From Herbidospora cretacea (lineage in GTDB: Bacteria > Actinomycetota > Actinomycetes > Streptosporangiales > Streptosporangiaceae): 64,000 nt of DNA. The position numbers were made by a program, and so were the translations under genes. Shown here piece by piece: positions 1-33,825 of the stretch; position 1 is the first letter of the stretch, and each line of letters opens with the position of its first letter. The stretch lies in contig NZ_BBXG01000006.1 of NCBI RefSeq assembly GCF_001570605.1, positions 186,001-250,000 on the forward strand. The letters run 5' to 3'. The notes below the pieces were generated by a model. That model did no database searches. It was not told where the DNA came from and was given only the letters and a program-made list of their open reading frames with translations.

Positions 1-255
1 GGTCCGGCCGCACTTCACGCAGACCAGGTGATGGTGGTGGCTGTCGGTGGCGCAGGCGCGGTAGACGGTCTCGCCCGCGTCGGTGTGGAGGACGTCGACC
101 CGGCCGTCGTTGTTGAGGGCCTGGAGGGCGCGGTAGATCGTCGTCAGGCCGATCTTCGAGCCGTCGGCGCGCATCTCGGTGAAGATGTCCTGGGCGCTGC
201 GGAACGCCTCGCTCTGCCGAAGGATCTCGTGCACCGCGTCGCGGCTTCTGCTCAT
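1..255 (-). CDS. zur: Fur-family zinc regulator Zur, N-terminal part
   Basis: Metal-responsive repressor of the Fur family; only the first 85 residues are visible because the gene runs off the left edge. The visible part has the winged-helix DNA-binding fold (FRSAQDIFTEM, GLTTIYRALQAL) and the start of the metal/dimerisation domain, with a histidine cluster followed by CVKCG, the first zinc-binding CxxC. The ATG overlaps the permease stop as ATGA. The N-terminus before the first helix is a little short for the family. It is called Zur rather than Fur because it closes a znuA-znuC-znuB operon headed by a Zur box, so it probably represses its own operon when zinc is plentiful. Confidence 0.87.
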   Translation of the reverse strand, partial: MSRSRDAVHEILRQSEAFRSAQDIFTEMRADGSKIGLTTIYRALQALNNDGRVDVLHTDAGETVYRACATDSHHHHLVCVKCGRT

Positions 256-1082
256 GCTGTCGACTCCCCTGTACGGCTCCGCCTCACGAATCTACCGATC
301 CCGAGCGCGACCGCGAACCCGGCGAGGGCGAGCAGCACGATCGTGGCCCCGGAGGGCACGTCGAGGTAGAACGACGACGTGAGACCGCCGACGGTGGCGA
401 GGACGCCGAAGACCATCGACAGGGCCATGGTCGTCCGGAAGCTCCGGGTGAGCTGCTGTGAGGTGGCCACCGGCACAACCATAAGCGCGCTGACGAGCAG
501 CAGCCCCACGGCCCGCATCGCGACGACCACCGTGACCGAGGCGATCACCGCGATGAGCAGGCCGAGGAACCTGACCGGCAGGCCGCTGGCCCTGGCCACC
601 TCCTCGTCCTGGCAGAGCACGAACAGCTCCCGGCCGAAGACGGCCAGCAGCGCCAGGACGGCCACCGCGAGGCCCGCGATGACCCACAGGTCGGTGGCGT
701 CGACGCTGGTGATCGCGCCGAACAGGTAGGAGTTCAGGGAGGCGGTGCTCTCGCCCGGCGTCAGGTAGATGATCATCACGCCGCCGGCCAGGCCGCCGTA
801 GAACAGCAGGGCAAGCGCGACGTCGCCGCTCGTCTTCCCGCGCGCCCGCACCATCTCGATCGCCACCGCCCCCAGCGCGGCCACCACCACGGCGGTCGCC
901 ACCGGGGCCGTGCCGGTCAGGAACCCCAGCGCCACCCCCGTCAGCGCGACATGGCCGATGCCGTCGCCCAGCAGGGCCAGCCGCCGCTGCACGATGAAGG
1001 TGCCGACGGCGGGCGCGGTCAGACCGACCATGACGGCGGCCACCAGGGCGTACCGCATGAAGTCGAGATCGAAGATGGTCAT
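252..1082 (-). CDS. znuB: Zinc ABC transporter permease ZnuB
   Basis: Integral membrane subunit (276 aa) of a metal-type ABC importer (ABC-3 family). It has roughly eight to nine hydrophobic segments and starts MTIFDLDFMRYALVAAVMVG. The ATG at 1082 is preceded by AGGAGAAGGC inside the end of znuC, and the two genes overlap by ATGA; the same arrangement links its end to zur. It forms the zinc channel served by the ZnuC ATPase and fed by the ZnuA lipoprotein. Manganese transport by the same family is possible, but the Zur box and the histidine-rich ZnuA favour zinc. Confidence 0.92.
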   Translation of the reverse strand: MTIFDLDFMRYALVAAVMVGLTAPAVGTFIVQRRLALLGDGIGHVALTGVALGFLTGTAPVATAVVVAALGAVAIEMVRARGKTSGDVALALLFYGGLAGGVMIIYLTPGESTASLNSYLFGAITSVDATDLWVIAGLAVAVLALLAVFGRELFVLCQDEEVARASGLPVRFLGLLIAVIASVTVVVAMRAVGLLLVSALMVVPVATSQQLTRSFRTTMALSMVFGVLATVGGLTSSFYLDVPSGATIVLLALAGFAVALGIGRFVRRSRTGESTA

Positions 1083-1861
1083 GCCTTCTCCTGGGCCAGC
1101 GCCCAGCCCGGCAGGGTGGTCTCCGCCGGCTCGGGCTCGTGCGGGTGGACGTGGTCGTGGCCCGGGAGCGCGTGGGTGCCGACCGCCGTCGGCGGGGCGC
1201 CGTCGTGGACCTTGCAGCCCTGGTTGAGCACGACCGCCCTGCTGATCAGCGGCTCCAGGGGGCCGAGCTCGTGGGCCACCAGCACCACCGTCTTCCCCCG
1301 TTCGACCAGGGCCGACAGGGTCTCGGCGAGCATCTGCTGGCTGCCGGAGTCGACCCCGGCGGTCGGCTCGTCGAGGACGAACGCGTCGGGCTCCCCGGCC
1401 AGCGCGCGGGCGATCAGCACCCGCTGCTGCTGGCCGCCCGACAGCGACGAGACGGGGTCGCCCGCGCGGTCGGACAGGCCGACCTCGTTCAGCGCCGCCG
1501 CGACCGCCTGCCGGTCGGCCGAGCTGGTGAGACGGCCGCGCCGCTGCCGGGCGATGCGGCCCGAGGCGACCACCTCGCGGACCGTCGCCGGAACCCCGCC
1601 GCCGACCGACAGCCGCTGGGGGACGTAGCCGATCCGCCACCACTCCCGGAAACGGGCGGGCGGGCGGCCGTACAGGAGAGTGGTGCCGCCGGAGAGGGGC
1701 TGAACCCCGAGCAGGGCGCGGACCAGCGTCGACTTGCCGGAGCCGTTGGGGCCGAGCACGGCCACGACCTCGCCGTCGTCGACGGTCAGGTCGACGCCGC
1801 GCAGGATCTTCCTGCCGTCGATCGTCACCTGACCGGCGGTCATGTCGAAAGCCGTGCTCAT
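1079..1861 (-). CDS. znuC: Zinc ABC transporter ATP-binding protein ZnuC
   Basis: Cytoplasmic ATPase of the zinc importer, 260 aa. Walker A is GPNGSGKST, the signature LSGGQQQR, and Walker B AFVLDEPTAGVD, all intact and in the usual order. The C-terminus contains a His-rich stretch (HALPGHDHVHPHEPEP), common in zinc-linked ATPases and perhaps a zinc-sensing or buffering tail. An ATG at 1879 overlaps the znuA stop, but the ATG at 1861 is preferred because GGAAGG lies six bases before it. It is the second gene of the znuA-znuC-znuB-zur operon. Confidence 0.92.
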   Translation of the reverse strand: MSTAFDMTAGQVTIDGRKILRGVDLTVDDGEVVAVLGPNGSGKSTLVRALLGVQPLSGGTTLLYGRPPARFREWWRIGYVPQRLSVGGGVPATVREVVASGRIARQRRGRLTSSADRQAVAAALNEVGLSDRAGDPVSSLSGGQQQRVLIARALAGEPDAFVLDEPTAGVDSGSQQMLAETLSALVERGKTVVLVAHELGPLEPLISRAVVLNQGCKVHDGAPPTAVGTHALPGHDHVHPHEPEPAETTLPGWALAQEKA

Positions 1862-1875
1862 GGGTCGCCTTCCGG

Positions 1876-2790
1876 TCATTGGCAGCCGAGTGCGGTGCGG
1901 AGCTCGGTGAGGTTGGCGGTCATGCCGGAGATGTAGTCACCGCCCTGGGGAGGGCTCTCCAGCGGATTGAGAACCGCCGTCTTGGCCCCGACCTCGCTCG
2001 CGAGGACCTCGGCGACCTTGGGGCTGACGAGTTCCTCGGTGAAAATGGTAGTCACCTTCTTCTCCTTCGCGATCCGGGCGGCCTCGGCCAAACGGGCAGG
2101 AGACGGCTCCCCGTCGGGGTCGATGCCGCCGATGCCGACCTGGTCGAGCTTGTAGCGGTTCGCGAGGTAGCCGAAGGCGGTGTGCGCGGTGACGATGGTC
2201 CGGTTGGCGCAGGTCTCCAGGCCCTTGGCGAACTCCGCGTCGAGGGTGGTCAGCGCCGCCGCGGTCTGCTTCGCCCGTTCCTTGTACGCCGCCCCGTGGG
2301 CCGGATCGGCCTCGGCCAGCCGCCCGCCCAGCGCGGTCGCCAGCGTGGCCATGCGGGAGGGGTCGAGCCACAGGTGGGGGTCGTAGGGGAGCTCCGCCTC
2401 CTCGTGGCCGTGCTCCTCCTCCTCTTCCCCGGAGTGGACGGCCTCCAGGGTGGGCACCGCCGTCGCCGCGTCGAACCCCCGGTCGGCGGCGTGCTGGGCC
2501 ACGGCCTCGTCGACGGCGGGCTGCACGCCCTTGACGTACACGACCAGAGAGGCTTCGGCGACCCCGGCCACCTGCTGGGGGGTCAGTTCGAGGTCGTGGG
2601 GCTCGACTCCGGGCTTGGTCAGGCCCTCGACCGTGACGTCGGGGCCGCCGACCTTCTCGGCGAGCCACTGGAGGGGGAAGAAGGCCGCGTCGACGACCGG
2701 CTTGCCCGAGTCGGCCGCGGTGGTGCCGCCGCAGGCGGCGGTCAGGGCGAGGGCGGACAGGGCTATCGAACGCGCAATATTTCCGGGCAT
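1876..2790 (-). CDS. znuA: Zinc-binding lipoprotein ZnuA
   Basis: Extracellular solute-binding lipoprotein (304 aa) of the zinc importer, cluster A-I. It begins with a lipoprotein signal ending in the lipobox LTAAC. A loop of acidic and His residues (GEEEEEHGHEE) precedes the conserved PHLWLDP motif; further metal-ligand histidines lie in TAHTAFGYLA. A GTG lies directly before the chosen ATG. First gene of the operon, with a Zur box about 25 bp upstream of the start, so expression should rise when zinc is scarce. A manganese or iron binding protein of the same fold is less likely given the His/acid loop. Confidence 0.93.
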   Translation of the reverse strand: MPGNIARSIALSALALTAACGGTTAADSGKPVVDAAFFPLQWLAEKVGGPDVTVEGLTKPGVEPHDLELTPQQVAGVAEASLVVYVKGVQPAVDEAVAQHAADRGFDAATAVPTLEAVHSGEEEEEHGHEEAELPYDPHLWLDPSRMATLATALGGRLAEADPAHGAAYKERAKQTAAALTTLDAEFAKGLETCANRTIVTAHTAFGYLANRYKLDQVGIGGIDPDGEPSPARLAEAARIAKEKKVTTIFTEELVSPKVAEVLASEVGAKTAVLNPLESPPQGGDYISGMTANLTELRTALGCQ

Positions 2791-2814
2791 CACCTCATCG
2801 AGTGTGCCAGAAAA

Positions 2815-2829
2815 TGAAAATGATTGTCA
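2815..2829 (-). promoter_or_regulatory. Zur box overlapping the znuA promoter
   Basis: TGAAAATGATTGTCA is a near-palindromic 15-mer that closely matches the actinobacterial Zur-box type (TGAAAATcATTtTCA). On the minus strand it overlaps a TTGACA hexamer (2825-2830) that could be the znuA -35 element, which fits repression by Zur. Confidence 0.85.
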
Positions 2830-2836
2830 AAACGGC

Positions 2837-3220
2837 TCAGAAGCCGCCGAATCGGGTCACCGCCACTGCCAGCAGGAACGCCAGCAGGGCCAGCCGCAGC
2901 ACCCGCGAGCCGACCCTCAGCGACGGCCACGACAGGTAGGCCAGCCACCCCGTGAACGCGATCACCGGCAGCATGCACAGGCCGCCGCGCCAGTCGGGGA
3001 AGGCGAAGCCGCCGATGAAGAAGGCCACCAGCACGATCGGCAGGACGATCTTCGGCAGCTGGTAGAGGAAGACGAGCAGCGGCGCGCTGCGGGTCTCGAC
3101 GGTCTTGCGCAGCCCGGTCGCGCCGGGCGTGAAGAACTGCTCGCCGGGCGGCAGCGGCCGCGGTGCCTTCTTGGTCTTCCGAGGCTGGGCGAGAGGATGG
3201 CGAGGTCGACGGTTGGCCAC
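2837..3220 (-). CDS. Small membrane protein, DUF6703-like
   Basis: A 127-residue actinobacterial protein with a basic, proline-rich N-terminus (RRPRHPLAQPRKTKKAPRPL), a segment resembling a linker helix, then about three membrane segments between residues 45 and 125 (for example LPKIVLPIVLVAFFIGGFAF). The layout matches the conserved hypothetical family DUF6703; no enzymatic motif is visible. It lies upstream of znuA in the same direction, with only the Zur-box region between. It could be an unrelated gene whose transcription runs into znuA. Function unknown. Confidence 0.7.
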   Translation of the reverse strand: MANRRPRHPLAQPRKTKKAPRPLPPGEQFFTPGATGLRKTVETRSAPLLVFLYQLPKIVLPIVLVAFFIGGFAFPDWRGGLCMLPVIAFTGWLAYLSWPSLRVGSRVLRLALLAFLLAVAVTRFGGF

Positions 3221-3273
3221 CCGTCGAGGTTACTCGCAGGTGGAAGACCCCCGCCTGATGGCATGCTGGGCTC

Positions 3274-3555
3274 ATGCTGGCCGTGATCCGCTATTCCGTG
3301 CCCGAAGCCAGGGCCGAGGAGTTCGCCCTCCACGCCCGCGAGGTGATCGACCTCTTCTCGGCCCAGAGCGGCTACCTGCGCGGACAGGTCGGCCGCTCGG
3401 TCGACGAGCCCAACCTGTGGGCGCTGGTCAGCGAGTGGGAGGGCGCCGGCTTCTACCGCCGCGCCCTGTCGGCGGCCCGCATGACCATGTATCCCCTGAT
3501 GACCCTGATGATCAATGAGCCCGGGGCGTTCGAGCAGGTCTATCCCAAGGGCTGA
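3274..3555 (+). CDS. Antibiotic biosynthesis monooxygenase-type protein
   Basis: A 93-residue protein with the alpha-beta ferredoxin-like barrel pattern of the ABM superfamily: starting strand [11 protein letters not shown], helix with the [13 protein letters not shown] segment, [28 protein letters not shown]. Members are small monooxygenases or simply dimeric binding folds. It ends 64 bp before glyS and is probably transcribed with it or from its own divergent promoter opposite the DUF6703 gene. No residue that decides substrate can be read. The family assignment is reasonably secure; the function is not. Confidence 0.7.
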
Positions 3556-3619
3556 GGCCACTAGGCTTGCGGCTATTCCTTTCACCATCGCCGACACCCA
3601 GCCGGATGGAGCACCACTC

Positions 3620-5005
3620 ATGGCACGTCGCACCGACGTCATGGAAACCATCGTCAGTCTCGCCAAACGCCGCGGGCTCGTCTACCCGTCGAGTGAGATC
3701 TACGGCGGTCTGCGGGCGTCCTGGGACTACGGACCCCTGGGTGTCGAGCTCAAGAACAACGTGAAGCGCGAGTGGTGGAAGTCCATGGTGCAGGGCCGCG
3801 ACGACGTCGTCGGCCTCGACTCCTGCGTGATCCTGGCCCGTGAGGTCTGGCAGGCCAGCGGCCACGTCGAGACCTTCACCGACCCGCTGACCGAGTGCCA
3901 GTCGTGCCACAAGCGCTACCGCGCCGACCACCTCGAAGAGGCCTACGCCGAGAAGCACGGCAACCCCCCGGCCAACGGCCTGGCCGACATCACCTGCCCC
4001 AACTGCGGCAACAAGGGCACCTTCACCCAGCCCAAGCAGTTCAGCGGCCTGCTGAAGACCTACCTGGGCCCGGTCGAAGACGAGTCGGGCCTGGCCTACC
4101 TGCGCCCCGAGACCGCGCAGGGCATCTTCATCAACTACCTCAACGTGCAGCAGTCGGCCCGCAAGAAGATCCCGTTCGGCATCGGCCAGCAGGGCAAGTC
4201 GTTCCGCAACGAGATCACCCCGGGCAACTTCATCTTCCGCACCCGCGAGTTCGAGCAGATGGAGATGGAGTTCTTCGTCAAGCCCGGCACCGACGAGGAG
4301 TGGCACCAGTACTGGATCGACGAGCGCCTGCGGTGGTACGTCGACCTCGGCATCTCCAAGGACAACCTGCGTCTCTACGAGCACCCCAAGGAGAAGCTGT
4401 CCCACTACTCCAAGCGGACCGTCGACATCGAATACCGCTTCAACTTCACCGGTTCCGAGTGGGGTGAGCTGGAGGGCATCGCCAACCGCACCGACTACGA
4501 CCTGTCGAGCCACGGCAAGGCCTCCGGCACCGACCTGTCGTTCTTCGAGCAGGACAGCGGCGAGCGCTACGTGCCCTACGTCATCGAGCCGGCCGCCGGC
4601 GTCGACCGCGCCACGCTGACGTTCCTGCTCGACGCCTACACCGTCGACCAGGCCCCCAACGCCAAGGGCGTCATGGAGGAGCGCACGGTCATGCGCCTCG
4701 ACCACCGGCTCGCCCCGGTCAAGGTCGCGGTGCTGCCGCTGTCGCGCAACGCCGACCTCACCCCGAAGGCCAAGGACCTGGCCGCGCAGCTGCGCCGCCG
4801 CTGGAACGTCGACTTCGACGACGCCGCCGCGATCGGCCGCCGCTACCGCCGTCAGGACGAGATCGGCACCCCGTTCTGCATCACCGTCGACTTCGACACC
4901 CTCGACGACCACGCGGTGACGATCCGCGAGCGCGACACGATGGCGCAGCAGCGCATCGCGCTCGACCAGGTCGAGTCCTACCTCCGCCAGCACCTCAACG
5001 ACTGA
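3620..5005 (+). CDS. glyS: Glycyl-tRNA synthetase (single-chain type)
   Basis: Class II aminoacyl-tRNA synthetase that charges tRNA-Gly; 461 aa, the normal size of the homodimeric bacterial/archaeal type. The glycine-specific start ([19 protein letters not shown], then SWDYGPLG) is clear. The zinc-type insertion [11 protein letters not shown] and CPNCG is present, as are class II motifs ([19 protein letters not shown] as motif 2 and the late [13 protein letters not shown]) and the anticodon-binding domain at the end. The ATG at 3620 follows GGAG at good spacing. Its stop abuts the stop of the convergent hydrolase with no room for a separate terminator. Confidence 0.96.
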
Positions 5006-6427
5006 TCAGGTCGCCGGGCAGACGGTGCCCTTCTTGGGCACCGTCCCGTTGATCAGGAACGCGTCGACGGCGTCGGTGATGCACGCCGTCTGGCCGTAGG
5101 CCCCGTGGCCCTCGCCCTCGAACGTCAGCAGCACCGCGTTGCCCAGTTCCGCGGTGAGCTTCGGGGCCCACACATACGGGGTGGCCGGGTCGTTCTTGGC
5201 CCCGACGACGACGATCGGCAGGGCCGTGCCGCGCGCGTCCACCCGCTTGTTGGTGTCCTCGCCCGGGACCGGCCAGATGCTGCAGATGCCGGCGCTGGCC
5301 GCGTCCGGGCCGAAGATCGGCGAGACCTTCGTCAGGTCCCTGGCCAGCGCCTCCGACTGCGCGAAGGTCGGCCGGTCGGTGGTGTCGGCGCAGAGCACCG
5401 CGTTCAGTGACGACAGCAGGGTGTTGTACGTCCCGTCGGGCTGACGGCCGGCGTACTGGTCGGCGAGGGACTGGAGGCCTGTCCCGTCGCCCTTGATGGC
5501 GGCGGCCAGCGCCTCCGAGAGCAGCGGCCAGGTGGCCTTGCTGTAGAGGGCCTCGCTGATGGCCGACCGCGCGGTGTCGTCGGTCACCTCGCGCCCGTTC
5601 ACGACCAGCGGCTTCTTCTGGAGCTGGTCGAGCAGGGCGACCACGGCCGCGTTCCCGCCGAAAGGGCAGTTCTGCCGCAGGCAGTCGGCCAGATAGTTCT
5701 CGTACGCCTTCTGGAAGCCCAGCACCTGGGTCTTCGACTGGTCGAGCAGGCCGACCGTCGGGTCGAGGGCGGCGTCGAGCACCATCCGGCCCGTCTTGGC
5801 GGGATAGAGGGTGGCGTAGGTGGCGCCGAGGTGGGTGCCGTACGAGAAGCCCAGGTAGTTGAGCTTGGGGTCGCCGAGGCCCTGCCGGAGGAGCTCCATG
5901 TCCTTGGCGGCGTTGACCGTGCCGACGTAGGGGAGGATGCGCCCGGCGTTGCGCTGGCAGCCCTGGGCGAACTCGACCGACAGGTTCCGCTCGGTGGCCT
6001 CGTTCAGCGACGGCTCGGCCTCCAGGAACTCCTCGAACTCCTTGGGCGGCAGGCACTGGATGCCGCTGCTGCGGTCGACGCCGCGCGGGTCGAAGCTGAC
6101 CAGGTCGTAGTTGCGGTTCAGGGTGCCGAAGGCGGCGCCCGAGGCGATCAGGGTGGTCACCCCCGAGCCGCCGGGGCCGCCGAAGTTGAAGACCAGCGAC
6201 CCGATGCGCGGCCCGGTCGCCCGCAGGCGGACCACGGCGAGGTCCAGGGTGCCCTTCGACGCGTCGGCGTAGTCGAGCGGCACGCGCAGCGTCGCGCATT
6301 CGTAGGACGCCAGCGGGGCCTCGGCGCACCGCGCCCATTTCAGGCCCGGCGGATCGGCCGGGCCGCCGCCCCCGCCGACACCGGTCATCGCCACCAGGGC
6401 GATCGCGACCAACTTCGCTCGGCTCAT
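5006..6427 (-). CDS. Secreted alpha/beta hydrolase, S33 tripeptidyl-aminopeptidase type
   Basis: Exported serine hydrolase of 473 aa, TAP/SCO7095-like family, expected to remove short peptides or cleave esters outside the cell. Oxyanion motif NFGGPGGSG is near residue 82, the nucleophile elbow GFSYGTHLG puts Ser at residue 195, an acid lies in AKNDPATP and the catalytic His in GEGHGAYGQ. Conserved cysteines typical of the family are present. The N-terminus is hydrophobic and followed by a glycine run where many relatives have a lipobox cysteine, so this copy looks secreted rather than lipid-anchored. DasR-like sites lie in its upstream region. Confidence 0.88.
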   Translation of the reverse strand: MSRAKLVAIALVAMTGVGGGGGPADPPGLKWARCAEAPLASYECATLRVPLDYADASKGTLDLAVVRLRATGPRIGSLVFNFGGPGGSGVTTLIASGAAFGTLNRNYDLVSFDPRGVDRSSGIQCLPPKEFEEFLEAEPSLNEATERNLSVEFAQGCQRNAGRILPYVGTVNAAKDMELLRQGLGDPKLNYLGFSYGTHLGATYATLYPAKTGRMVLDAALDPTVGLLDQSKTQVLGFQKAYENYLADCLRQNCPFGGNAAVVALLDQLQKKPLVVNGREVTDDTARSAISEALYSKATWPLLSEALAAAIKGDGTGLQSLADQYAGRQPDGTYNTLLSSLNAVLCADTTDRPTFAQSEALARDLTKVSPIFGPDAASAGICSIWPVPGEDTNKRVDARGTALPIVVVGAKNDPATPYVWAPKLTAELGNAVLLTFEGEGHGAYGQTACITDAVDAFLINGTVPKKGTVCPAT

Positions 6428-6481
6428 CCGTCACCCTCCGGAATGGGATCTTGTCGGAGGGTGTTTCCACGATAACAGGGC

Positions 6482-6497
6482 ATTGGTCTGAACCAAT
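6482..6497. promoter_or_regulatory. DasR-like operator 1
   Basis: ATTGGTCTGAACCAAT: a 16-bp near-perfect palindrome of the dre type (consensus close to ACTGGTCTAGACCACT) recognised by GntR/HutC regulators such as DasR. It is in the 300-bp divergent region between the S33 hydrolase and ppdK. Confidence 0.6.
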
Positions 6498-6527
6498 TGT
6501 CGGGGGTCGTGAAAAATGCTTGGTCGA

Positions 6528-6543
6528 ATTGGTTCAGACCAAT
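6528..6543. promoter_or_regulatory. DasR-like operator 2
   Basis: ATTGGTTCAGACCAAT: same 16-bp layout as the site 46 bp to the left, and its exact reverse complement apart from a 2-bp difference at the centre. Confidence 0.6.
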
Positions 6544-6585
6544 CTGAGTCTCCGGAAAAAACGGCCGTTCTTTACGTTCCGGCGA

Positions 6586-6601
6586 ATTGGATTAGACCGG
6601 T
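6586..6601. promoter_or_regulatory. DasR-like operator 3 (weaker)
   Basis: ATTGGATTAGACCGGT: a degenerate third copy of the same palindrome, 58 bp from the second. It retains TTGG and AGACC half-sites. Confidence 0.45.
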
Positions 6602-6726
6602 TGTACCCGCTCTGCCTGCGGGAACACTTATAGATGACAGCCGTGAGGTTTCATGCTGTGCTTAATCGGTAGAGTCCCGCTCGCGGGGTGGATCCGCGAT
6701 TGTTTGGGCCCCTGGAGGAGACTGTC

Positions 6727-9324
6727 GTGCCGAAGCTCGTCTATGACTTCACTGAAGGAAACAAAGACCTCAAGGATCTTCTCGGGGGCAAGGGCGCCAA
6801 TCTCGCGGAAATGACGAACCTCGGTCTCCCGGTCCCGCCCGGCTTCACGATCACCACCGACGCCTGCCGCGCCTACATGGAGGACGGCTCGATCCCCGCC
6901 GAGGAGATCGGCACGCACCTGGCCAAACTCGAGGCCGCCATGGGCAAGCGCCTCGGCGACCCGGAGGACCCGCTGCTGGTGTCGGTCCGGTCGGGGGCCA
7001 AGTTCTCGATGCCGGGGATGATGGAGACCGTCCTCAACATCGGCCTCAACGACAGGTCGGTGCTCGGCCTGGTCCGCCAGGCCGGCAACGAGCGCTTCGC
7101 GTGGGACTCCTACCGCCGCCTGATCCAGATGTACGGCAAGACCGTCATGGACATCGACGGCGACCTGTTCGAGGCGGCCATCGACGAGCTCAAGGCCGGC
7201 CGGACCGACCTCGACCTGACGGCCGAGGACTTCAGGGCCCTGGTGGGGACCTACAAGGAGATCGTGCGCCGCGAGAAGGGCCGCGACTTCCCCGAGGACC
7301 CCAAGGAGCAGATGGAGCTGGCCATCAAGGCCGTCTTCGACTCCTGGAACGCTGACCGCGCGATCCTCTACCGCCGCCAGGAGCGCATCCCGGCGGACCT
7401 CGGCACGGCGGTCAACGTGGTCGCGATGGTCTTCGGCAACCTCGGCATGGACTCGGGCACCGGCGTCGCCTTCACCCGCGACCCGGCCAGCGGCCAGCAG
7501 GGCGTCTACGGCGACTACCTCCAGAACGCCCAGGGCGAGGACGTCGTGGCCGGCATCCGCAACACCGTGCCGCTCCAGGACCTGAAGGAGATCGACCCCC
7601 ACTCCTACGGCGAGCTCATGGACATCATGGCCAAGCTCGAGGGCCACTACCGCGACCTGTGCGACATCGAGTTCACCATCGAGCGCGGCAAGCTCTGGAT
7701 GCTGCAGACCCGGGTGGGCAAGCGCACCGCCGGAGCCGCCTTCTGCATCGCCACCCAGCTCGTCGACGAGGGCCTGATCGACCTCGACGAGGCGCTGCGG
7801 CGCGTCACCGGTGACCAGCTCGCCCAGCTCATGTTCCCCCGCTTCGCGGCCGACCACGGCAACAGCGTGCTGACGAAGGGCATGAACGCCTCCCCGGGCG
7901 CGGCCGTCGGCAAGGCGGTCTTCTCCTCGGCCCGCGCCACCGAACTGGCCGCTCAGGGCGAGCACGTCATCCTGGTCCGCCGCGAGACCACCCCCGACGA
8001 CCTGGCCGGCATGATCGCCGCCCGGGGCGTGCTGACCTCACGCGGCGGCAAGACCTCCCACGCCGCCGTGGTCGCCCGCGGCATGGGCCGGACCTGCGTC
8101 TGCGGCGCCGAGGAGATCGAGGTCGACGCGCAGGCCAGGCGCTTCACCGTCGGCGACGTCGTCGTCGAGGAGGGCGACATCATCTCCATCGACGGCGGCA
8201 CCGGCCGCGTCCACCTCGGCGAGGTGCCCGTGGTCGCCTCCCCGGTCGTGGAGTACTTCGAGGGCTCGGACAACAGCGACGAGCTGGTCCGCGCCGTCGA
8301 CACGATCATGAAGCACGCCGACGGGCGCCGCCGCCTCGGCGTCCGGGCCAACGCCGACACCCCCGACGACGCCGGGCGGGCCCGCCGGTTCGGCGCGAGC
8401 GGCGTCGGCCTGTGCCGGACCGAGCACATGTTCCTCGGCGACCGGCGGGTGCTGATCGAGGACCTGATCCTGGCCGACACCCCCGAGGAGCGGCAGGCCG
8501 CGCTCGACGCCCTGGAACCCCTCCAGAAGGCCGACTTCGCCGGGCTGTTCGCGGCCATGCAGGGCCTGCCGGTGACGATCCGGCTGATCGACCCGCCGTT
8601 GCACGAGTTCCTGCCCGACATCATCGACCTGTCGGTCAAGGTCGCCACCGGCAAGGGCACCAAGAAGGACCGCCGCCTGCTGGAGGCCGTGCAGCGCCTC
8701 CACGAGCAGAACCCGATGCTCGGCCTGCGCGGGGTCCGCCTCGGGCTCGTCGTGCCCGGCCTGTTCGCCATGCAGGTGCGGGCCATCGCCGAGGCCGCCA
8801 AGGCCACCGAGGGGGCCGAGCCCGAGATCATGATTCCGCTCGTGGGGGCCGTACAGGAACTGGAGAGCGTGCGCGAGGAGGCCAGGCGGATCCTCGCCGA
8901 GGTCGGGGTGGACGCGCTCATCGGCACCATGATCGAGGTGCCGCGCGCGGCCCTGACCGCCGGGCAGATCGCCGAGGCGGCCGAGTTCTTCTCCTTCGGC
9001 ACCAACGACCTGACCCAGATGACCTGGGGCTTCTCGCGGGACGACGTCGAGTCGGCGTTCTTCGGCACCTACCTCGACAAGGGCATCTTCGGGGTCTCGC
9101 CCTTCGAGTCGCTCGACCGCGACGGCGTCGGCCGCCTCATGAGGGTCGCCGTCGAGGAGGGCCGCCGGGCCCGGCCCGGCATCAAGATGGGCATCTGCGG
9201 CGAGCACGGCGGCGACCCCGACTCGGTCAGGTTCTGCCACGAGATCGGCCTCGACTACGTCTCCTGCTCACCTTTCCGGGTGCCGGTCGCCCGGCTGGAG
9301 GCGGGCCGCGCGGCGGTGCTGTAA
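6727..9324 (+). CDS. ppdK: Pyruvate, phosphate dikinase
   Basis: Interconverts pyruvate, ATP and phosphate with phosphoenolpyruvate, AMP and pyrophosphate; 865 aa, normal length. N-terminal ATP-grasp domain (LLGGKGANLAEM, GVAFTRDPASG), central swivelling domain with the phosphorylated His in RGGKTSHAAVVARGMGR, and C-terminal PEP/pyruvate barrel (GLCRTEHMF, SFGTNDLTQMTWGFSRDD, GICGEHGGDP, SCSPFRVPVARL). The GTG at 6727 is chosen because GGAGGAG lies six bases before it. Three DasR-like sites lie 125-245 bp upstream, hinting at control by amino-sugar state, which would fit a gluconeogenic/glycolytic switch. Confidence 0.96.
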   Translation: MPKLVYDFTEGNKDLKDLLGGKGANLAEMTNLGLPVPPGFTITTDACRAYMEDGSIPAEEIGTHLAKLEAAMGKRLGDPEDPLLVSVRSGAKFSMPGMMETVLNIGLNDRSVLGLVRQAGNERFAWDSYRRLIQMYGKTVMDIDGDLFEAAIDELKAGRTDLDLTAEDFRALVGTYKEIVRREKGRDFPEDPKEQMELAIKAVFDSWNADRAILYRRQERIPADLGTAVNVVAMVFGNLGMDSGTGVAFTRDPASGQQGVYGDYLQNAQGEDVVAGIRNTVPLQDLKEIDPHSYGELMDIMAKLEGHYRDLCDIEFTIERGKLWMLQTRVGKRTAGAAFCIATQLVDEGLIDLDEALRRVTGDQLAQLMFPRFAADHGNSVLTKGMNASPGAAVGKAVFSSARATELAAQGEHVILVRRETTPDDLAGMIAARGVLTSRGGKTSHAAVVARGMGRTCVCGAEEIEVDAQARRFTVGDVVVEEGDIISIDGGTGRVHLGEVPVVASPVVEYFEGSDNSDELVRAVDTIMKHADGRRRLGVRANADTPDDAGRARRFGASGVGLCRTEHMFLGDRRVLIEDLILADTPEERQAALDALEPLQKADFAGLFAAMQGLPVTIRLIDPPLHEFLPDIIDLSVKVATGKGTKKDRRLLEAVQRLHEQNPMLGLRGVRLGLVVPGLFAMQVRAIAEAAKATEGAEPEIMIPLVGAVQELESVREEARRILAEVGVDALIGTMIEVPRAALTAGQIAEAAEFFSFGTNDLTQMTWGFSRDDVESAFFGTYLDKGIFGVSPFESLDRDGVGRLMRVAVEEGRRARPGIKMGICGEHGGDPDSVRFCHEIGLDYVSCSPFRVPVARLEAGRAAVL

Positions 9325-24932: not shown

Positions 24933-25721
24933 GTGCCCATGCACTACACGCATGGGCACCATGAGAGCGTGCTGCGGTCCCACCGCTGGCGCACCGCCGA
25001 GAACTCCGCGGCCTACCTCCTGCCGCACCTGACCCCCGCCACCACCCTGCTCGACGTGGGATGCGGCCCCGGCACCATCACCGCCGACCTGGCCGCGCGG
25101 GTCGCCCACGTCACCGCCACCGAGATCGGCCCCGGCGAGCTCGACCTCGCCCGCGCCGAGGCGGCGCGACGCGGGACTCCGAACATCGCCTTCGCGGTGG
25201 CCGACGTGCACGCGCTGCCGTACCAGGACCGGGAGTTCGACGTCGTGCACGCCCACCAGGTGCTGCAGCACGTCGCCGACCCGGTGCGGGCGCTGCGCGA
25301 GATGGGCCGCGTCGCCGGTCTGGTCGCCGCCCGCGACAGCGACTACGGCGCCTTCACCTGGTTCCCGGCGCTGCCGGAACTCGACGAGTGGCTCGCGCTC
25401 TACTACGCGGTCGCCGCCCTCAACGACGGCGAGCCCGACGCGGGCCGGCGGCTGCTCTCGTGGGCCCGCGCGGCCGGGTTCACCGACATCGAGGTCTCCA
25501 CGTCGACCTGGTGTTACGCCAATCCGGAGGACCGGGCCTTCTGGGGCGGCATGTGGGCCGAACGCGTCGTGAAGTCGTCGCTGGGCCGCCAGGCGCTGGC
25601 GGCGGGCCTGGCCACCGAGCGGGACCTGCGGCGCATCGCCGACGGCTGGCTGACGTGGGCGGCCGACCCCGACGGGTTCCTGTCGATCACTCACGGCGAG
25701 GTCCTCTGCCGTGTTTCCTGA
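24933..25721 (+). CDS. Class I SAM-dependent methyltransferase
   Basis: Soluble methyltransferase of 262 aa, UbiE/Methyltransf_25 type. The SAM-binding loop TLLDVGCGPGTITADLA is motif I, followed by an acidic residue (TEIGPGELDLAR), motif II VADVHALPYQDREFDVVHAHQVLQH, and post motifs. The start is rich in His (MHYTHGHHESVLRSHRWRT), seen in a subgroup of small-molecule methyltransferases. Substrate cannot be read. GTG start without an SD, probably leaderless; a palindrome immediately upstream suggests local repression. Confidence 0.85.
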   Translation: MPMHYTHGHHESVLRSHRWRTAENSAAYLLPHLTPATTLLDVGCGPGTITADLAARVAHVTATEIGPGELDLARAEAARRGTPNIAFAVADVHALPYQDREFDVVHAHQVLQHVADPVRALREMGRVAGLVAARDSDYGAFTWFPALPELDEWLALYYAVAALNDGEPDAGRRLLSWARAAGFTDIEVSTSTWCYANPEDRAFWGGMWAERVVKSSLGRQALAAGLATERDLRRIADGWLTWAADPDGFLSITHGEVLCRVS

Positions 25722-25810: not shown

Positions 25811-26149
25811 ATGCGGATCGGTGAGCTGGCACGGCGCTCGGGAGTGAGCACCCGTTCGCTGCGCCATTACGAGGAGAAGGGCCTGCTGGTCTCCCGCCGG
25901 AGCACCAACGGATACCGCGACTACGACGAGACCCATGTCAGGCTCGTGCAGGAGATCCGGGCGCTGATGGCGGTCGGCTTCACCCTGGAGGACGCGCGCC
26001 CGTTCGTCGCCTGCCTGCAGGCCGGCAACGAGTCGGGCGGCGTCTGCCCCGAGTCGGTGGAAGTGGTCCGCCGCAAGCTCATCGAGATCGACACCGAGAT
26101 CCGGGACCTGATGGCCCGCCGCGACGAGATGCTACGGAGGAACACATGA
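25811..26149 (+). CDS. MerR-family transcriptional regulator
   Basis: DNA-distorting regulator of 112 aa. N-terminal winged helix MRIGELARRSGVSTRSLRHYEEKGLL and NGYRDYDETHVRLVQEIR are standard, followed by a dimerisation helix and a short C-terminus with one cysteine (GGVCPES). The operator lies 15 bp upstream, so it is autoregulated. It overlaps the thioredoxin ATG by four bases, an arrangement known from actinobacteria, and probably activates the pair in response to a redox or drug signal. The inducing signal is not known. Confidence 0.9.
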   Translation: MRIGELARRSGVSTRSLRHYEEKGLLVSRRSTNGYRDYDETHVRLVQEIRALMAVGFTLEDARPFVACLQAGNESGGVCPESVEVVRRKLIEIDTEIRDLMARRDEMLRRNT

Positions 26150-28547: not shown

Positions 28548-28916
28548 TCTGTCCTTCTCGCCTGTACGGGACCACGCTCGTGATCAGGCCGAGATTAAGC
28601 TGACAGGCCTTTGTCGTCAACAGATAGGTTGGATGTATAGGCGTGGGAACGGTGCAAACGGGGCGTTCGAGTGGCTCGAAATCGGACATAGGTCGGATCT
28701 TGAGGGTGGCGGGGGTTCGGTTGTCTGGGTTTTGCATGCGAGGGGGGACCGGACAAGTTCGGATATTCGGGGATTTGAAGCATTGTCAGGATGGCCGTTT
28801 GGAGTGTTTTGTAACTCCGGAAACAGGGATATCTCTGGAATTCCTGCGCATCAAGTGGCGTGCCCTATACCCTCTGCGGCGTCACGTTTTCATATGAGTG
28901 TCCAGAGGGAACCGGC
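28548..28916. other. Lower-GC leader upstream of the three-gene island
   Basis: 369 bp without a convincing gene, visibly richer in A/T than the surroundings. It carries an imperfect inverted repeat GGAGT/ACTCC (28801-28818, spacer 8, extended by GTTT and GAAAC on the outer sides) about 100 bp before the first gene of the island, and it must hold promoters for the secreted esterase (leftward) and the island (rightward). No tRNA or att-like repeat was recognised. Confidence 0.5.
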
Positions 28917-29981
28917 ATGCCATTCGCGTGGGGCGATCTCCCGGTGGGGAGGGTGCTCCGCATTGCCGGGGTCGATTCCAGCATTGACGCCAATGTCATG
29001 GAATTGTTGCTGGACCCTTTACCGGAGACCGGTCCCGCGGTCGTCACGTATGCGGCGGCGGAGTGCGACTCGCTGCCTGAGCTGGTCGGATCCATCCTCC
29101 GCGAACTGGAGACCCTGGCCATCGGCCTGTTCCCCGCATGGTTGCCCGAAGGGGAGAAGCTCGACGGCCCGGGTGGCGCCGGAATGGCGGCCGCGCGTGT
29201 TCTCGCGATGCGCATGGCCTCCGGTACCCGTCATTTCGGACCGTTCCTGGCGGAACTCGCCTGCCACGCGATTCAGCACCAGGGCGCGTTCGCGCCCCGG
29301 CCGAAACGCGCGTTCCCCGCAGAAGTGCGCGCGGCCGGGCTCGCCCGGGTCATCGCCGCCACATTCCAGCGGGAGGAGGCGGCGCTCGTCGTCCACGTCC
29401 CCGAGAAGCTGAGCCCCCACGGGGAGACGGTGTTCGTCGCCGGGTGTGAATGGCTGGCCCATCAGAGCGGAATGGGCGTCTGGCTGGTCGGACGCGAACT
29501 CAAGCGGGTCGAGACCGTTCATCTGCTGGTCCCCCCGCCGGTCACCCGGCTCGCGGCCGAATTGCCGTCACCGGAGGCACCGCCCGCCGAGAGCGTCGGG
29601 GTGCCGCCGCTGTGCGGGCGGCCCGCCAGGTACAGCGTGGTGGAACAGGCCGTGGAGCGGGCGCTCGGCGAGTGCCCATGGGCCTACGGCCGCACCTGGA
29701 ACCAGACCTACGCGTCGCCCGATCCCCTTTTCGTGCCGATCCGTACGGATCTCATGTGGGCGGCGGAGAAATGCGTCGTCGAACTCGACGGTCCCGAACA
29801 CCGGACGCCGGCCCGGATGGAGCTCGACCGGCTCCGCGACCGCCATTTGGAACGTGCCGGGTTCACGGTGCTGCGCTTCACCAACGAGCAGGTGCTCGAC
29901 GATCTTCCGGCGGTGCTCCGCCGGATCAGGGATTTCCTCCTGGGGCGGCGGAGCCTCGGGCTGAACGAAGGAGCGGTTTGA
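28917..29981 (+). CDS. DUF559/Vsr-like nuclease-domain protein (island gene 1)
   Basis: 354-aa protein in two parts. Residues 1 to about 230 have no fold I recognise. Residues about 255-345 form a DUF559/Vsr-type PD-(D/E)xK-like domain: Asp278 in RTDLMW, E289 and D291 in VVELDGPEHR, then ELDRLRDRHLERAGFTVLRFT and a final helix. This suggests a DNA endonuclease or nickase. ATG 28917 follows AGAGGGA; a GTG at 28860 is in frame. The stop overlaps the next start (TGATG), so it belongs to a three-gene operon with a winged-helix-like protein and a double ATPase. Defence role is inferred from composition only. Confidence 0.75.
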   Translation: MPFAWGDLPVGRVLRIAGVDSSIDANVMELLLDPLPETGPAVVTYAAAECDSLPELVGSILRELETLAIGLFPAWLPEGEKLDGPGGAGMAAARVLAMRMASGTRHFGPFLAELACHAIQHQGAFAPRPKRAFPAEVRAAGLARVIAATFQREEAALVVHVPEKLSPHGETVFVAGCEWLAHQSGMGVWLVGRELKRVETVHLLVPPPVTRLAAELPSPEAPPAESVGVPPLCGRPARYSVVEQAVERALGECPWAYGRTWNQTYASPDPLFVPIRTDLMWAAEKCVVELDGPEHRTPARMELDRLRDRHLERAGFTVLRFTNEQVLDDLPAVLRRIRDFLLGRRSLGLNEGAV

Positions 29982-30607
29982 TGTCCGAAGAACGACTGAC
30001 GTATCAGCAGGTCGCGGCTCTGCTTGTCCTCAAGACATTAGGGACCGAGGTCGGACGCAAGGAACTGGTGGAGACCTGGGGCCTCGACCTCAGCACCAAG
30101 AACCGCGCCGGGCTGGTCGACCACAAGTTGATGGAGGTGGAGAAGCGGGGGAACAGCCTTTGGTACTCGATCACAACCGCCGGTGAGGACCGGGCGCTCG
30201 AAGAAGTTCAGAAGGGTGTCGCGGTGACTTCGCGGTCGGGCAAGACCTTGGCCCTGCTCTACCTGCACACCCTTCTTTCGCCCGCCTTGCCTCAGGCCGC
30301 TGCGCCGGAGCCGCCCGCAGTTGCCGCCGACCTCACCGACGAGGAGGTTGAGGACCGCATTCGTGCGGCCTACGCGAAGATCACCCCAGGTGTGGGGGAG
30401 TGGGTCTCCCTGACGAGATTGCGGCCACTGCTCGACGGCATCGACCGGAGCAGGCAGGACAACGCGCTGCGCAGCATGCTGCTGAACTCCTCTGAGGTGC
30501 ACATCCTCGCAGCCGCGATCCCGGGCCGCCTGTCGCCCGAGGACCACGCGGCCGCCGTCGTGATCGGTGACGAGCCGAACCATCAGCTGCGAATCGGGGA
30601 GCGTTGA
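29981..30607 (+). CDS. Small winged-helix-like protein (island gene 2)
   Basis: 208-aa soluble protein. The first 85 residues (LTYQQVAALLVLKTLGTEVGRKELVETWGLDL..., NRAGLVDHKLMEVEKRGNSLWYSITTAGEDRA) read like a winged helix with recognition helix and wing. A Pro/Ala linker follows, and a second helical half contains EVEDRIRAAYAKI and GEWVSLTRLRPLLDGIDR, also resembling a winged helix. It may bind DNA or bridge nuclease and ATPase. Overlaps both neighbours by one to three bases (TGATG), so strict co-translation is expected. I know no named family. Confidence 0.7.
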   Translation: MSEERLTYQQVAALLVLKTLGTEVGRKELVETWGLDLSTKNRAGLVDHKLMEVEKRGNSLWYSITTAGEDRALEEVQKGVAVTSRSGKTLALLYLHTLLSPALPQAAAPEPPAVAADLTDEEVEDRIRAAYAKITPGVGEWVSLTRLRPLLDGIDRSRQDNALRSMLLNSSEVHILAAAIPGRLSPEDHAAAVVIGDEPNHQLRIGER

Positions 30608-33600
30608 TGATCACTGATTGGTATGCCCTCAGCTCCCTGAACTTCATCTCAAGCGTCGCTGGAGAAGAAGACGTCTGGCAGCCGGTCCCCTTCCACGTGG
30701 ATGGGATGCACCCCCAGGCAACGCGAGCGCTGACGGCGGGCCTCGAAGCCGCCGCCCGGAGCGTGGGCACCTCCAGCCCGATCGGGGTTGTCCTCGAAGG
30801 CACGTCGGGAAGCGGCAAGACCCACCTGATGAGCTGGCTCCGGGAACAGGCCATCCAGCGCGACGGCTACTTCTTCCTGATGAGCGTGCTCGACGCGCGC
30901 AACTTCTGGGACAGCACCCTGGTGTCCATCCAGGATGGCCTGGCCAGAGTCGGGACCGATGAGGAGAGCCAGCTCAAGCGCTTTCTCCGCAACCTGACCG
31001 CGCAGCTGGCGCTGCCGCGCCGGACCCAGCAGGCGGTCATCGGGAACCAGCCCCTGGAGAAGGGGCACCTCGACGAGTTCCTGCAGGCGCTCTACAAGAA
31101 GGACCGCAGAGTCTTCCAGGAGGCCCAGGACACCGCGCGGGCTCTGGTGTTGCAGGCCACCAACGACTACAACCTGGCCAGCGTGGGCGACAGCTACATG
31201 TATGGCCTTGACGACGTCGACGGCGGCCGGGGCGAGTGGGGATTCCGCCAGATCGCGCGCAGCCCGCAGGAACTGGTCCGGGACATCTCACGGCTGCTGG
31301 CCATGACCGGACCGAGTGTCATGGCCTTCGACCAGCTCGACCCGCTCATCAGCTCGATGGCGCTGTTCGGGACCGGGGAGGTCGACCCGAAGACCCGGGC
31401 CACCGCCTTGCAGATCGCCCACGGGCTGACCTCCCTGAGAGAGGTATCCAGCAGGACCCTCTCAGTCGTCTCCTGTCTGCCGGACACCTGGATACTGCTC
31501 AAGGAATTGGCAGTGTCCAGCTTCAAGGACCGGTTCGAAGGAACCACGATCCTCAAGCGTATCCCGAGTCCTGAAGTGGGCCGGGAGCTCGTGACCCGGA
31601 GGCTTGCTGAGCACTTCAAGAGCATCGGGTTCGAACCGCCCTATCCCACGTGGCCGGTTCGGCCGGAAGCCTTCGCGGAAGCGCCGTTCTACACTCCGCG
31701 GAAGGTCCTCAAGGCTCTCACCGAGCACATCAAGACCTGTGTGGCTAGGGGTGAGGTCAAGGAACTGCTGCGGTTCGACGGAGTCGAGACGCACCAGGTC
31801 GAGCCGACCACCGCGATCCAGTCGACGCTCAGCGAGATCCACGGGATCGAGACGAAGTTCGCTCTCCTTGAGGACTCCGCTCACGTCACTGGTGCACTCG
31901 ACCCGACGCAGGAGGACGCCGTCCTGCCCAGCCTGCTCGCCGCCGGGCTCCAGGCGTGGGCCATCGAAAAGGGCGACGACGCCACCGCCTACAAGGTCGA
32001 CCCGACTTTCGGGCAGCGCACCTCTCTGCACGCTCGTCTCCGGCAGGTGCTCGACGAGACCCGGGAGGACGAGATCCACTGGGCGATTCGCGGTATCAGC
32101 GCCAAGCACCCGAACGCGGCGCTGACCCGGCTCAAGCGGGCCGTCATCGCGGCCGGTCTCGAAGCCGAGACGCCCAAGCGCAGGCTCGTCATCATCAGGA
32201 ACGTTCCGTGGGCGGGCGGTCCGAAGACCCAGCAGGCCCTGGCCGACTTCCGCGCGCGGGGCGGGCGGGTCGTCAAGGTCGACGAGGACGACCTGAAGAC
32301 CCTCAGCGCCCTGCGCGACCTCATGGCGCAGAATCCGCCCAGCATCAACAAGTGGCTGGTCCTGAAGCGCCCGGCCAGCGCGATCAAGCTGCTCAGAGAC
32401 CTCTTGGAGGACTGGTCGGACGAGCCGCAGCCAGCCGGGGCCGCCCCGGTCGAGGTGGAGCCGAGCGCCCCGCAGGTGCCGCAAGCCCCAAAAGCACCTG
32501 AGGGCGACATCCTCGAGGAGCCGCCCGCACCCGCGCAGTCGCTGCCCACCCGTGAGGCCGGGGTCTCGGGCCACGGTCCGCAGAACGTCCCCGTCGGGGT
32601 GCCGTCGCTGATCGTCGGGCGCTCCTATGAGCGTGGGCTTCCCGTCTCCGTCGAGCTGGAGGCGTTGCGGAAGCACGTCGCGATCTTCGCCGGTTCCGGT
32701 TCCGGCAAGACCGTTCTGATCAGGCGCATCGTCGAGGAGTGCGCCATCCAGGGTGTCTCCTCGATCGTGCTCGACACCAACAACGACCTCGCCCGGCTCG
32801 GCGACCCCTGGCCCGAGGAGCCCTCCGCCTGGGGTCCCGGTGACGCCGCGCGGGCCGCTCGCTACATCGCGGACACCGACGTCGTCGTGTGGACGCCTCG
32901 CCGGGAGAAGGGACGGCCGCTGGCCTTCCAGCCGCTGCCCGACTTCGCCGGCGTCCGGGACGACGTCGACGAGTTCAACGAGGCCGTCGACGCCGCCTTC
33001 GCCGCGCTGGTCCCCCGGGCCAAGCTTGAGGGGAACACGAGCAAGGCCGAGGTGGCGCGGGCGGTGCTGAAGGAGGCCGTCGTCCACTTCGGGAGGTACA
33101 AGGCCGGCGGGCTCAACGGGCTGGTCAACCTGCTCGCCGACTTCCCGGAGGACATCAGCCGGATCAGCGGAGCGGTGAAGATCGCGGATGGGCTCGCCCA
33201 GGTGCTCAGGGCCGCGATGGTGAACGACCCGCTGTTCGGGGGTGCGGGGCAGCCGGTCGATCCGGGGCTGCTGCTCACCCCGGCGGCCGGCAAGCGGGCG
33301 CGGGTATCCGTCATCTCGTTCGTGGGGTTGCAGAGCGACTCCGAGCGGCAGTCGTTCGTGAACCAGCTCCAGATGGCGCTGTTCGCGTGGATCAAGAAGA
33401 ACCCCGCGGGGGACCGGCCTCTCGGGGGGCTCTTCGTCATGGACGAGGCGCAGAACTTCGCGCCCTCCGGCGCCGGCACGGTGTGCACGCAGAGCACGCT
33501 GGCGCTGGCGTCGCAGGCGCGCAAGTACGGGCTCGGGCTGGTGTTCGCGACCCAGGCTCCGAAGGGGCTGCACAACCGCATCCCGGGCAACGCGGCCACC

Positions 33601-33825
33601 CAGTTCTACGGGCTCCTCAACGCCCAGGTGCAGATCGAGGCGGCCAAAGAGATGGCCCGGGTGAAGGGGGGCAAGGCCGACGACATCGGGTCGCTCATGA
33701 GCGGGCAGTTCTACGTCGCGCCTGAGGGGGCGGGGTTCGCGAAGGTGCGCACACCGCTCTGCCTGAGCCACCACCCCGCCTCGCCGCTGACGACCGAGGA
33801 GGTCATCGAGCGAGCCGGCCGGTGA
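30607..33825 (+). CDS. Double P-loop ATPase: AAA module fused to HerA/FtsK module (island gene 3)
   Basis: 1072-aa cytoplasmic protein. The N-terminal AAA/STAND-like module has Walker A GTSGSGKT (65-72) and a Walker-B-like VMAFDQLDP (Asp242). A middle helical part and a Pro-rich hinge (about 605-650) follow. The C-terminal HerA/VirB4-type module has Walker A GSGSGKT (696-702), Walker B LFVMDEAQNFAP (D946, E947) and the sensor-like LVFATQAPKGL. HerA modules form hexameric DNA translocases that work with nucleases. ATG 30607 overlaps the previous stop (TGATG) and follows GGGGAG. Both motor domains look intact. I do not recognise the full architecture; candidates are DptH-like, PglY-like or a new defence ATPase. 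Confidence 0.85.
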   Translation: MITDWYALSSLNFISSVAGEEDVWQPVPFHVDGMHPQATRALTAGLEAAARSVGTSSPIGVVLEGTSGSGKTHLMSWLREQAIQRDGYFFLMSVLDARNFWDSTLVSIQDGLARVGTDEESQLKRFLRNLTAQLALPRRTQQAVIGNQPLEKGHLDEFLQALYKKDRRVFQEAQDTARALVLQATNDYNLASVGDSYMYGLDDVDGGRGEWGFRQIARSPQELVRDISRLLAMTGPSVMAFDQLDPLISSMALFGTGEVDPKTRATALQIAHGLTSLREVSSRTLSVVSCLPDTWILLKELAVSSFKDRFEGTTILKRIPSPEVGRELVTRRLAEHFKSIGFEPPYPTWPVRPEAFAEAPFYTPRKVLKALTEHIKTCVARGEVKELLRFDGVETHQVEPTTAIQSTLSEIHGIETKFALLEDSAHVTGALDPTQEDAVLPSLLAAGLQAWAIEKGDDATAYKVDPTFGQRTSLHARLRQVLDETREDEIHWAIRGISAKHPNAALTRLKRAVIAAGLEAETPKRRLVIIRNVPWAGGPKTQQALADFRARGGRVVKVDEDDLKTLSALRDLMAQNPPSINKWLVLKRPASAIKLLRDLLEDWSDEPQPAGAAPVEVEPSAPQVPQAPKAPEGDILEEPPAPAQSLPTREAGVSGHGPQNVPVGVPSLIVGRSYERGLPVSVELEALRKHVAIFAGSGSGKTVLIRRIVEECAIQGVSSIVLDTNNDLARLGDPWPEEPSAWGPGDAARAARYIADTDVVVWTPRREKGRPLAFQPLPDFAGVRDDVDEFNEAVDAAFAALVPRAKLEGNTSKAEVARAVLKEAVVHFGRYKAGGLNGLVNLLADFPEDISRISGAVKIADGLAQVLRAAMVNDPLFGGAGQPVDPGLLLTPAAGKRARVSVISFVGLQSDSERQSFVNQLQMALFAWIKKNPAGDRPLGGLFVMDEAQNFAPSGAGTVCTQSTLALASQARKYGLGLVFATQAPKGLHNRIPGNAATQFYGLLNAQVQIEAAKEMARVKGGKADDIGSLMSGQFYVAPEGAGFAKVRTPLCLSHHPASPLTTEEVIERAGR

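Follow-up and report, generated by a model that had tools for sequence, protein, structure and literature searches.

Given a nuclease gene that overlaps with a small gene of two parts, which in turn overlaps with a gene for a fused double ATPase, the question arises whether the three encode a machine directed against invading DNA, or whether they serve the upkeep of the host's own genome. The genes, here called A, B and C, lie on the + strand of contig NZ_BBXG01000006.1 of the soil actinomycete Herbidospora cretacea, at positions 28917-33825 of the window (the whole stretch of 64,000 nucleotides, nt, that was analysed). Adjacent genes overlap, and each has one match in its own genome. The initial annotation read them as a defence or DNA-processing machine; a linked nuclease-adaptor-AAA-HerA operon is indeed present, and an anti-invader role is its most likely, although still predicted, function. 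Specifically, we consider it probable that A-B-C is an anti-invader DNA capture-and-cut machine.

Domain content of the three genes

The three genes (stop codons included) and their domains are as follows; lengths are in amino acids (aa) and residue numbers are those of the respective protein.

28917..29981, + strand: gene A, nuclease partner, 354 aa
28917..29537, + strand: A N-terminal domain, residues 1-207, alpha/beta, weakly P-loop-NTPase-like
29601..29954, + strand: A nuclease domain, residues 229-346, Vsr/DUF559 fold
29981..30607, + strand: gene B, fast-evolving two-part adaptor, 208 aa
30332..30598, + strand: B C-terminal domain, residues 118-206, recurring in plasmid and phage-like proteins
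30607..33825, + strand: gene C, AAA ATPase, middle domain, linker and HerA/FtsK translocase, 1072 aa
30712..31776, + strand: STAND/Orc-like AAA of C, residues 36-390, Walker A G65..K71-T72, Walker B D242-Q243-x-D245
31816..32418, + strand: middle alpha/beta domain of C, residues 404-604, from the secondary structure of the predicted model
32419..32595, + strand: linker of C, residues 605-663, probably flexible, low confidence (pLDDT about 30 over most of it)
32596..33810, + strand: HerA/FtsK motor of C, residues 664-1068, Walker A 696-702, Walker B D946-E947, R972, Q983

The initial annotation had all coordinates right, as well as the TGATG at both the A-B and the B-C junction and the motif positions in C (GTSGSGKT at 65-72, GSGSGKT at 696-702, D946-E947) and in A (D278/E289/D291). 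An alternative in-frame GTG start at 28860 would give a longer form of A. The DUF559/Vsr-like nuclease that it saw in A is borne out by a Pfam DUF559 match (E=1.1e-12), by the Vsr/DUF559 fold and by an active site (E243, D278, E289, D291, H295) that is invariant in 53/53 aligned A sequences, and by sequence and fold A is supported as a catalytically competent nuclease. The N-terminal domain of A carries a Walker A motif in none of the 53 sequences and appears to be a pseudo-ATPase, for which HH comparison did not support common ancestry with the AAA domain of C. Some A relatives match DpdF weakly (E about 1e-4); for two of them (E=1e-4 to 2e-4) identity with DpdF was rejected, the match covering the nuclease domain only and pointing to a shared DUF559-like domain.

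Similarly, C is the fusion of an N-terminal AAA and a C-terminal HerA module that had been proposed (Pfam AAA_22 E=1.4e-9, DUF87/HerA E=3.1e-11), and both of its P-loop modules have an intact Walker A, with the refinement that the N-terminal Walker B reads DQ and not DE (D242-Q243-x-D245 in 24/24 sequences), which we take to be STAND-like. Profile matches to the AAA part among 17 C members comprise AAA_16 (16/17), AAA_22 (11/17) and NACHT (10/17), and the HerA/FtsK ATPase domain possesses both sensor Q and arginine finger. Between the two modules, the order of elements in the predicted model (residues 428-556) is compatible with an inactive restriction-endonuclease fold, a tentative reading; the middle domain has no significant profile match, its best candidates, the restriction endonuclease 4f0p in the PDB (E=0.15) and TCAD9 in Pfam (2/17 members, best E=0.008), being insignificant, and HH comparison lent no support to common ancestry with the nuclease of A. 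The terminase and Zot-like PHROG matches of C reflect its P-loops.

Of the three proteins B evolves most rapidly, with 75% identity to its counterpart in L002 (L numbers denote loci) as against 84% for A and 89% for C. It had been described as a two-part, winged-helix-like protein; the two parts are real, the C-terminal half recurring as a detachable domain, while the winged helix is unconfirmed, Pfam giving no significant match for B. The C-terminal domain (about 85 aa) recurs, with up to three occurrences, in a giant protein encoded beside a phage portal gene on a Thermobispora plasmid and in giant frames of viral contigs. It is joined once to a MerR-like helix-turn-helix (HTH), a fusion to an HTH being located on a Nonomuraea plasmid. 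Its loci are L073:6833-9166, L080 and L081 (reading frame 113-7219), L072:5818-6252 and L074:957-1946. It is possible that the domain is a shared DNA-binding module or a decoy. A kinship of the B profile with calmodulin (best PDB E=3e-5) was rejected as an effect of acidic-helix composition, no EF-hand being matched in Pfam; matches to Cas2 (PADLOC E=0.023) and CBP66 (E=0.25), and those of relatives to CATRA-C, POTRA_3 and DUF6306, fell below significance.

The ratio of nonsynonymous to synonymous substitution rates (dN/dS), taken against five Herbidospora relatives, is 0.20-0.32 for A, 0.22-0.28 for B and 0.13-0.17 for C, indicative of purifying selection (four flanking control genes: 0.11-0.50), and gene order is similar among relatives although the surroundings differ. 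Taken together with the DUF559, DUF87/HerA and AAA_22 matches, selection and conserved gene order indicate that the operon is more than a chance arrangement.

Linkage of A, B and C and exchange of partners

One scan of bacterial genomes yielded 45 relatives of C. Since the gene caller was rough and misplaced B in several loci, presence was counted from profile searches: B adjoins C in 44/45 loci, the exception (L043) being a contig-end fragment, and A is present in 37/45, two of the eight loci without it (L041, L043) lying at contig ends. In loci that have both genes, the A-B overlap is usually 1 or 4 nt, and B and C are for the most part spaced by -4 to +17 nt. Within a sample of 100 relatives (own genome included), 23 genomes contained C at E up to 1e-60, and 18 contained full-length A at E up to 1e-30, each of these 18 being one of the C-bearing genomes (Fisher p=1.1e-15, or 7e-11 excluding the own genus, relatedness not being corrected for). 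Across 396 phylum-wide genomes (own included), C was found in 6 and A in 3, all three of them C-positive (p=1.3e-4 excluding the own genome). Full-length A without C was not found in these two samples, in which the scans score only part of the first-look candidates and absences are not absolute; the converse, C without A, does occur. When 24 genomes were searched, full-length A was found in three, always beside B-C, and the remaining matches were to the nuclease end of the profile only.

Two alphaproteobacteria, Xanthobacter (L037) and Methylobacterium (L071), likewise carry the trio; in the former, a protein of 1232 aa that ends in a CHAT domain (E=2.8e-6) is encoded upstream of it (L037:3784-7482). 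On a Rhodococcus contig (L040:610-9579), B-C is duplicated in tandem, an additional copy of this unit lying after A-B-C.

What stands next to B-C varies among the relatives. Three Actinoplanes loci (L025, L026, L045) lack A and carry an AIPR-family protein downstream of C, which in L025 is AbiU by PADLOC (E=9e-114); the counterparts in L026 and L045 resemble it, that of L045 in pieces. In L059, two genes directly upstream of B, in the place of A, match PDC-M02A and PDC-M02B, a PADLOC candidate, and L055 has homologues of them (PADLOC was run on the L025 and L059 proteins only, the other loci being matched to those by phmmer). We take AIPR/AbiU and DUF4365 proteins to be nucleases; no sequence similarity was found between A and the AbiU or PDC-M02 partners. 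At two further loci, L075:11224-15598 and L013:4667-9052, which branch together, a Trypco1 gene and a large WD40-repeat gene lie divergently beside B-C, and by eye the N-terminus of the WD40-repeat protein looks protease- and NTPase-like. Finally, six more rows (L033, L034, L052, L058, L076, L077) have B-C without A, AbiU, PDC-M02 or Trypco.

Mapped on a tree of 66 C rows (52 with a DUF559 partner, 7 with none, including the uninformative L041 at a contig end, 3 with AbiU, 2 with PDC-M02 and 2 with Trypco), the partner state requires 9 changes, fewer than shuffled labels do (mean 13.7); partner states are clustered on the tree, yet changed repeatedly. The tree was of a quick kind without a mixture model, was run with a lower limit of 700 aa for C pieces and left out 10 locus ids (L001, L043, L062-L068, L079: window copies, duplicates and fragments); it carries long-branch warnings for L037 with L071 and L055 with L058, and for L041, L045 and L061, where C is apparently frame-disrupted, single open pieces were used. 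The trio is thus not the strict unit as which it was first presented: given that B-C occurs without A at many loci and that partners are swapped, the unit is made up of B-C, with A as the usual but optional partner.

In Herbidospora yilanensis (L036), alignment windows from 29296 to about 32520 show 59-76% nucleotide identity to three other Herbidospora, which share 75-89% among themselves over the same central windows; the flanks of L036, and its C from about 32520 onward, show 78-96%. Its C branches with rows from Acrocarpospora and Sphaerisporangium (SH-aLRT 99), and its dN stands at 0.525 for B (0.12-0.17 in the other five relatives), 0.182 for A (0.10-0.11) and 0.204 for C (0.07-0.09), with dN/dS of 0.51, 0.25 and 0.28, respectively. 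In these comparisons the operon centre of L036 resembles an allele replacement that made the operon a mosaic, with B the most changed.

Proposed mechanism and competing explanations

For the capture-and-cut machine we infer ring assembly, docking of A on C, recognition of DNA by B, the target DNA and the defence outcome, in the following manner. C would combine an AAA switch with a HerA/FtsK ring motor, and B would be a rapidly diversifying adaptor that helps to choose the DNA or the phage trigger. Together with the AAA part, B would detect either the DNA of an invader or an intermediate of replication or transfer, upon which HerA hexamers, driven by ATP, would thread the duplex, and A, as the executioner, would cut the threaded duplex with its Vsr-type nuclease, perhaps docked via its degenerate ATPase-like N-terminal domain. 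With two or three genes in less than 5 kb the lineage is compact, and in nature the same motor is found with the nuclease, without it and beside differing partners, which makes the capture proposal directly testable by partner swapping. The lineage also links the AbiU and PDC-M02 catalogue entries to one shared motor, and this would account for how they could be aimed at DNA.

A broader idea, which we entertain only tentatively, is that B-C acts as a general capture chassis with pluggable, unrelated effectors (the Vsr-type A, AbiU, DUF4365/PDC-M02), recognition and pumping being kept while the killing is exchangeable, and that actinophage decoys may answer it. If so, the C-terminal domain of B in the giant phage-like proteins, one of them beside a portal gene, could compete with B.

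Several observations weigh against A-B-C as a pure defence cassette, the strongest being its quasi-core distribution in two genera and the loci without A in the genus labelled g60. C is near-universal in g95 (36/37 genomes), a genus that includes Rhodococcoides corynebacterioides, with extra or broken C copies in four genomes (G509, G519, G521, G522), and is present in 7/7 genomes of the own genus; in both it is quasi-core and resembles a lineage gene more than a mobile cassette. In g60, C occurs in 38/148 genomes, and among 20 loci fetched, B-C is present in 20/20 and A in 3/20. The 17/20 loci with B-C but without A have neighbourhoods similar to those of the three A-bearing loci, most of the surrounding genes being common to L107 (A present) and L106 (A absent). 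The other partner queries were unmatched at these 17 loci, whose neighbours were unscanned for other nucleases, and full-length A was not found elsewhere in the 17 genomes. The initial annotation had itself named, as evidence that would speak against it, ATPase homologues that always lie in core loci without a nuclease; g60 provides this in part, with A present in the remaining three loci. Furthermore, the surroundings of the operon in the window are no defence island: among 10 flanking genes scanned, those with a family encode a multicopper oxidoreductase, a methyltransferase, a MerR regulator, a thioredoxin, a Macro domain, a GDSL lipase, DUF2264, an aldehyde dehydrogenase and a 2-hydroxyacid dehydrogenase. 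Lastly, none of 50,697 phage records holds a C homologue and none was confirmed in viral contigs, on which grounds a phage origin was also rejected.

Alternatively, B-C could be a lineage-level machine of genome maintenance (segregation, repair or recombination), with A as an accessory nuclease like NurA beside HerA. The near-universal presence of C in two genera, the A-less loci of g60 and the HerA fold of C would fit such a role, as would the position of C between rplN and rpsQ, inside ribosomal-protein operons, in 18/45 loci (25/45 have at least one of four ribosomal-protein markers nearby). However, C is unmatched in 77/100 relatives, 390/396 phylum-wide genomes and 110/148 g60 genomes, candidates being scored in part, the partners that take turns beside B-C are catalogued as defence proteins, and the operon centre appears to have been replaced by a divergent allele in L036; we therefore regard genome maintenance as unlikely. 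In an annotated Tsukamurella locus (L070:5248-14659), the trio shares the rplN-rpsQ interval with VapBC, a DEAD/DEAH helicase and hypothetical genes, and this interval is an insertion spot inside ribosomal-protein operons. More improbable still is an origin in a mobile element, with the cluster domesticated as a module of transfer or segregation that blocks or aids DNA transfer and is not anti-phage, against which stand the invariant nuclease site of A and the lack of an integrase or relaxase among the genes of one annotated locus, no systematic search having been made elsewhere.

Relation to described systems

A class of HerA/FtsK capture systems is predicted, on the basis of comparative genomics, in the main text of Rakesh, Aravind and Krishnan (2024; PMC10853773), comprising Orc/CDC6 ATPases, inactive and active restriction endonucleases (REases), HerA/FtsK and winged helix-turn-helix (wHTH) proteins, with the interception of invader DNA as the proposed role; parts of PMC12839542 add a BREX-related offshoot. 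A-B-C resembles the Orc/CDC6 branch of PMC10853773, with which it shares the coupling of an AAA ATPase to HerA/FtsK, an active nuclease, an adaptor that evolves fast and could be of the winged-helix type, and domains variously joined across one or several proteins. Of the class features, the HerA/FtsK ATPase domain and an active restriction-type nuclease (A, by its sequence and fold, and absent at part of the loci) are present, while Orc, inactive-REase and wHTH features remain putative. The main text of PMC10853773 (figure panels and supplement lying outside the comparison) names no DUF559, Vsr, DUF4365, AIPR, Rhodococcus or actinobacteria. A literature search, largely without preprints, subscription journals and supplements, found neither a description of a DUF559-adaptor-AAA/HerA set nor a laboratory test of such a system. 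The operon is accordingly not, as had been suggested, new in kind, the Orc/CDC6-HerA class having been predicted in 2024 (PMC10853773, main text), and is better described as a fresh variant of an already predicted class, for which the parts of PMC10853773 and PMC12839542 compared here give computational prediction.

With respect to named systems, the view that the trio matches none of them was upheld: no PADLOC model set matched, A and B had no match among the PADLOC (2023) models at E up to 0.01, those of named HerA, Dnd and BREX systems included, and C matched only HerA-type and mad8 models at that level. BREX gave no PADLOC match on A, B, C or the 10 flanking genes, and Pfam BrxC_BrxD reached only E=0.12 on C. 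The Dnd models of PADLOC and NCBIfam gave no match for any of the three genes at E up to 1, and C does not have the eight-domain layout that the main text of PMC10853773 gives for DndH, whose C-terminal domain is HerA (7es4). In contrast to HerA-SIR2, HerA-DUF4297 and HerA-NurA, the partner here is a Vsr-type nuclease and the HerA part is fused behind an AAA domain; no SIR2 or DUF4297 was matched in A or B by Pfam and PADLOC. The HerA matches of C leave out at least the first 100 residues of HerA, presumably the HAS barrel. B and C of L059 matched neither the PDC-M02 nor the AbiU models.

That A-B-C is a diverged member of MADS, DndFGH, HerA-SIR2 or HerA-DUF4297 is the least probable explanation of all: although mad8 (the best PADLOC match to C, residues 679-1047, E=1.2e-16) and HerA models match C, and mad1 and mad2 match two nearby genes, the latter two matches fall on MerR and generic methyltransferase domains outside the operon, and A and B are unmatched by the models of these systems. 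Of the set mad1-mad8, only mad8 is found inside the operon; mad1 matches the MerR regulator at 25811-26149 of the window (E=1.1e-10) and mad2 the methyltransferase at 24933-25721 (E=5.2e-15), two of the 10 flanking genes, and MADS membership was rejected. Together, the three matches could mislead an automatic MADS call.
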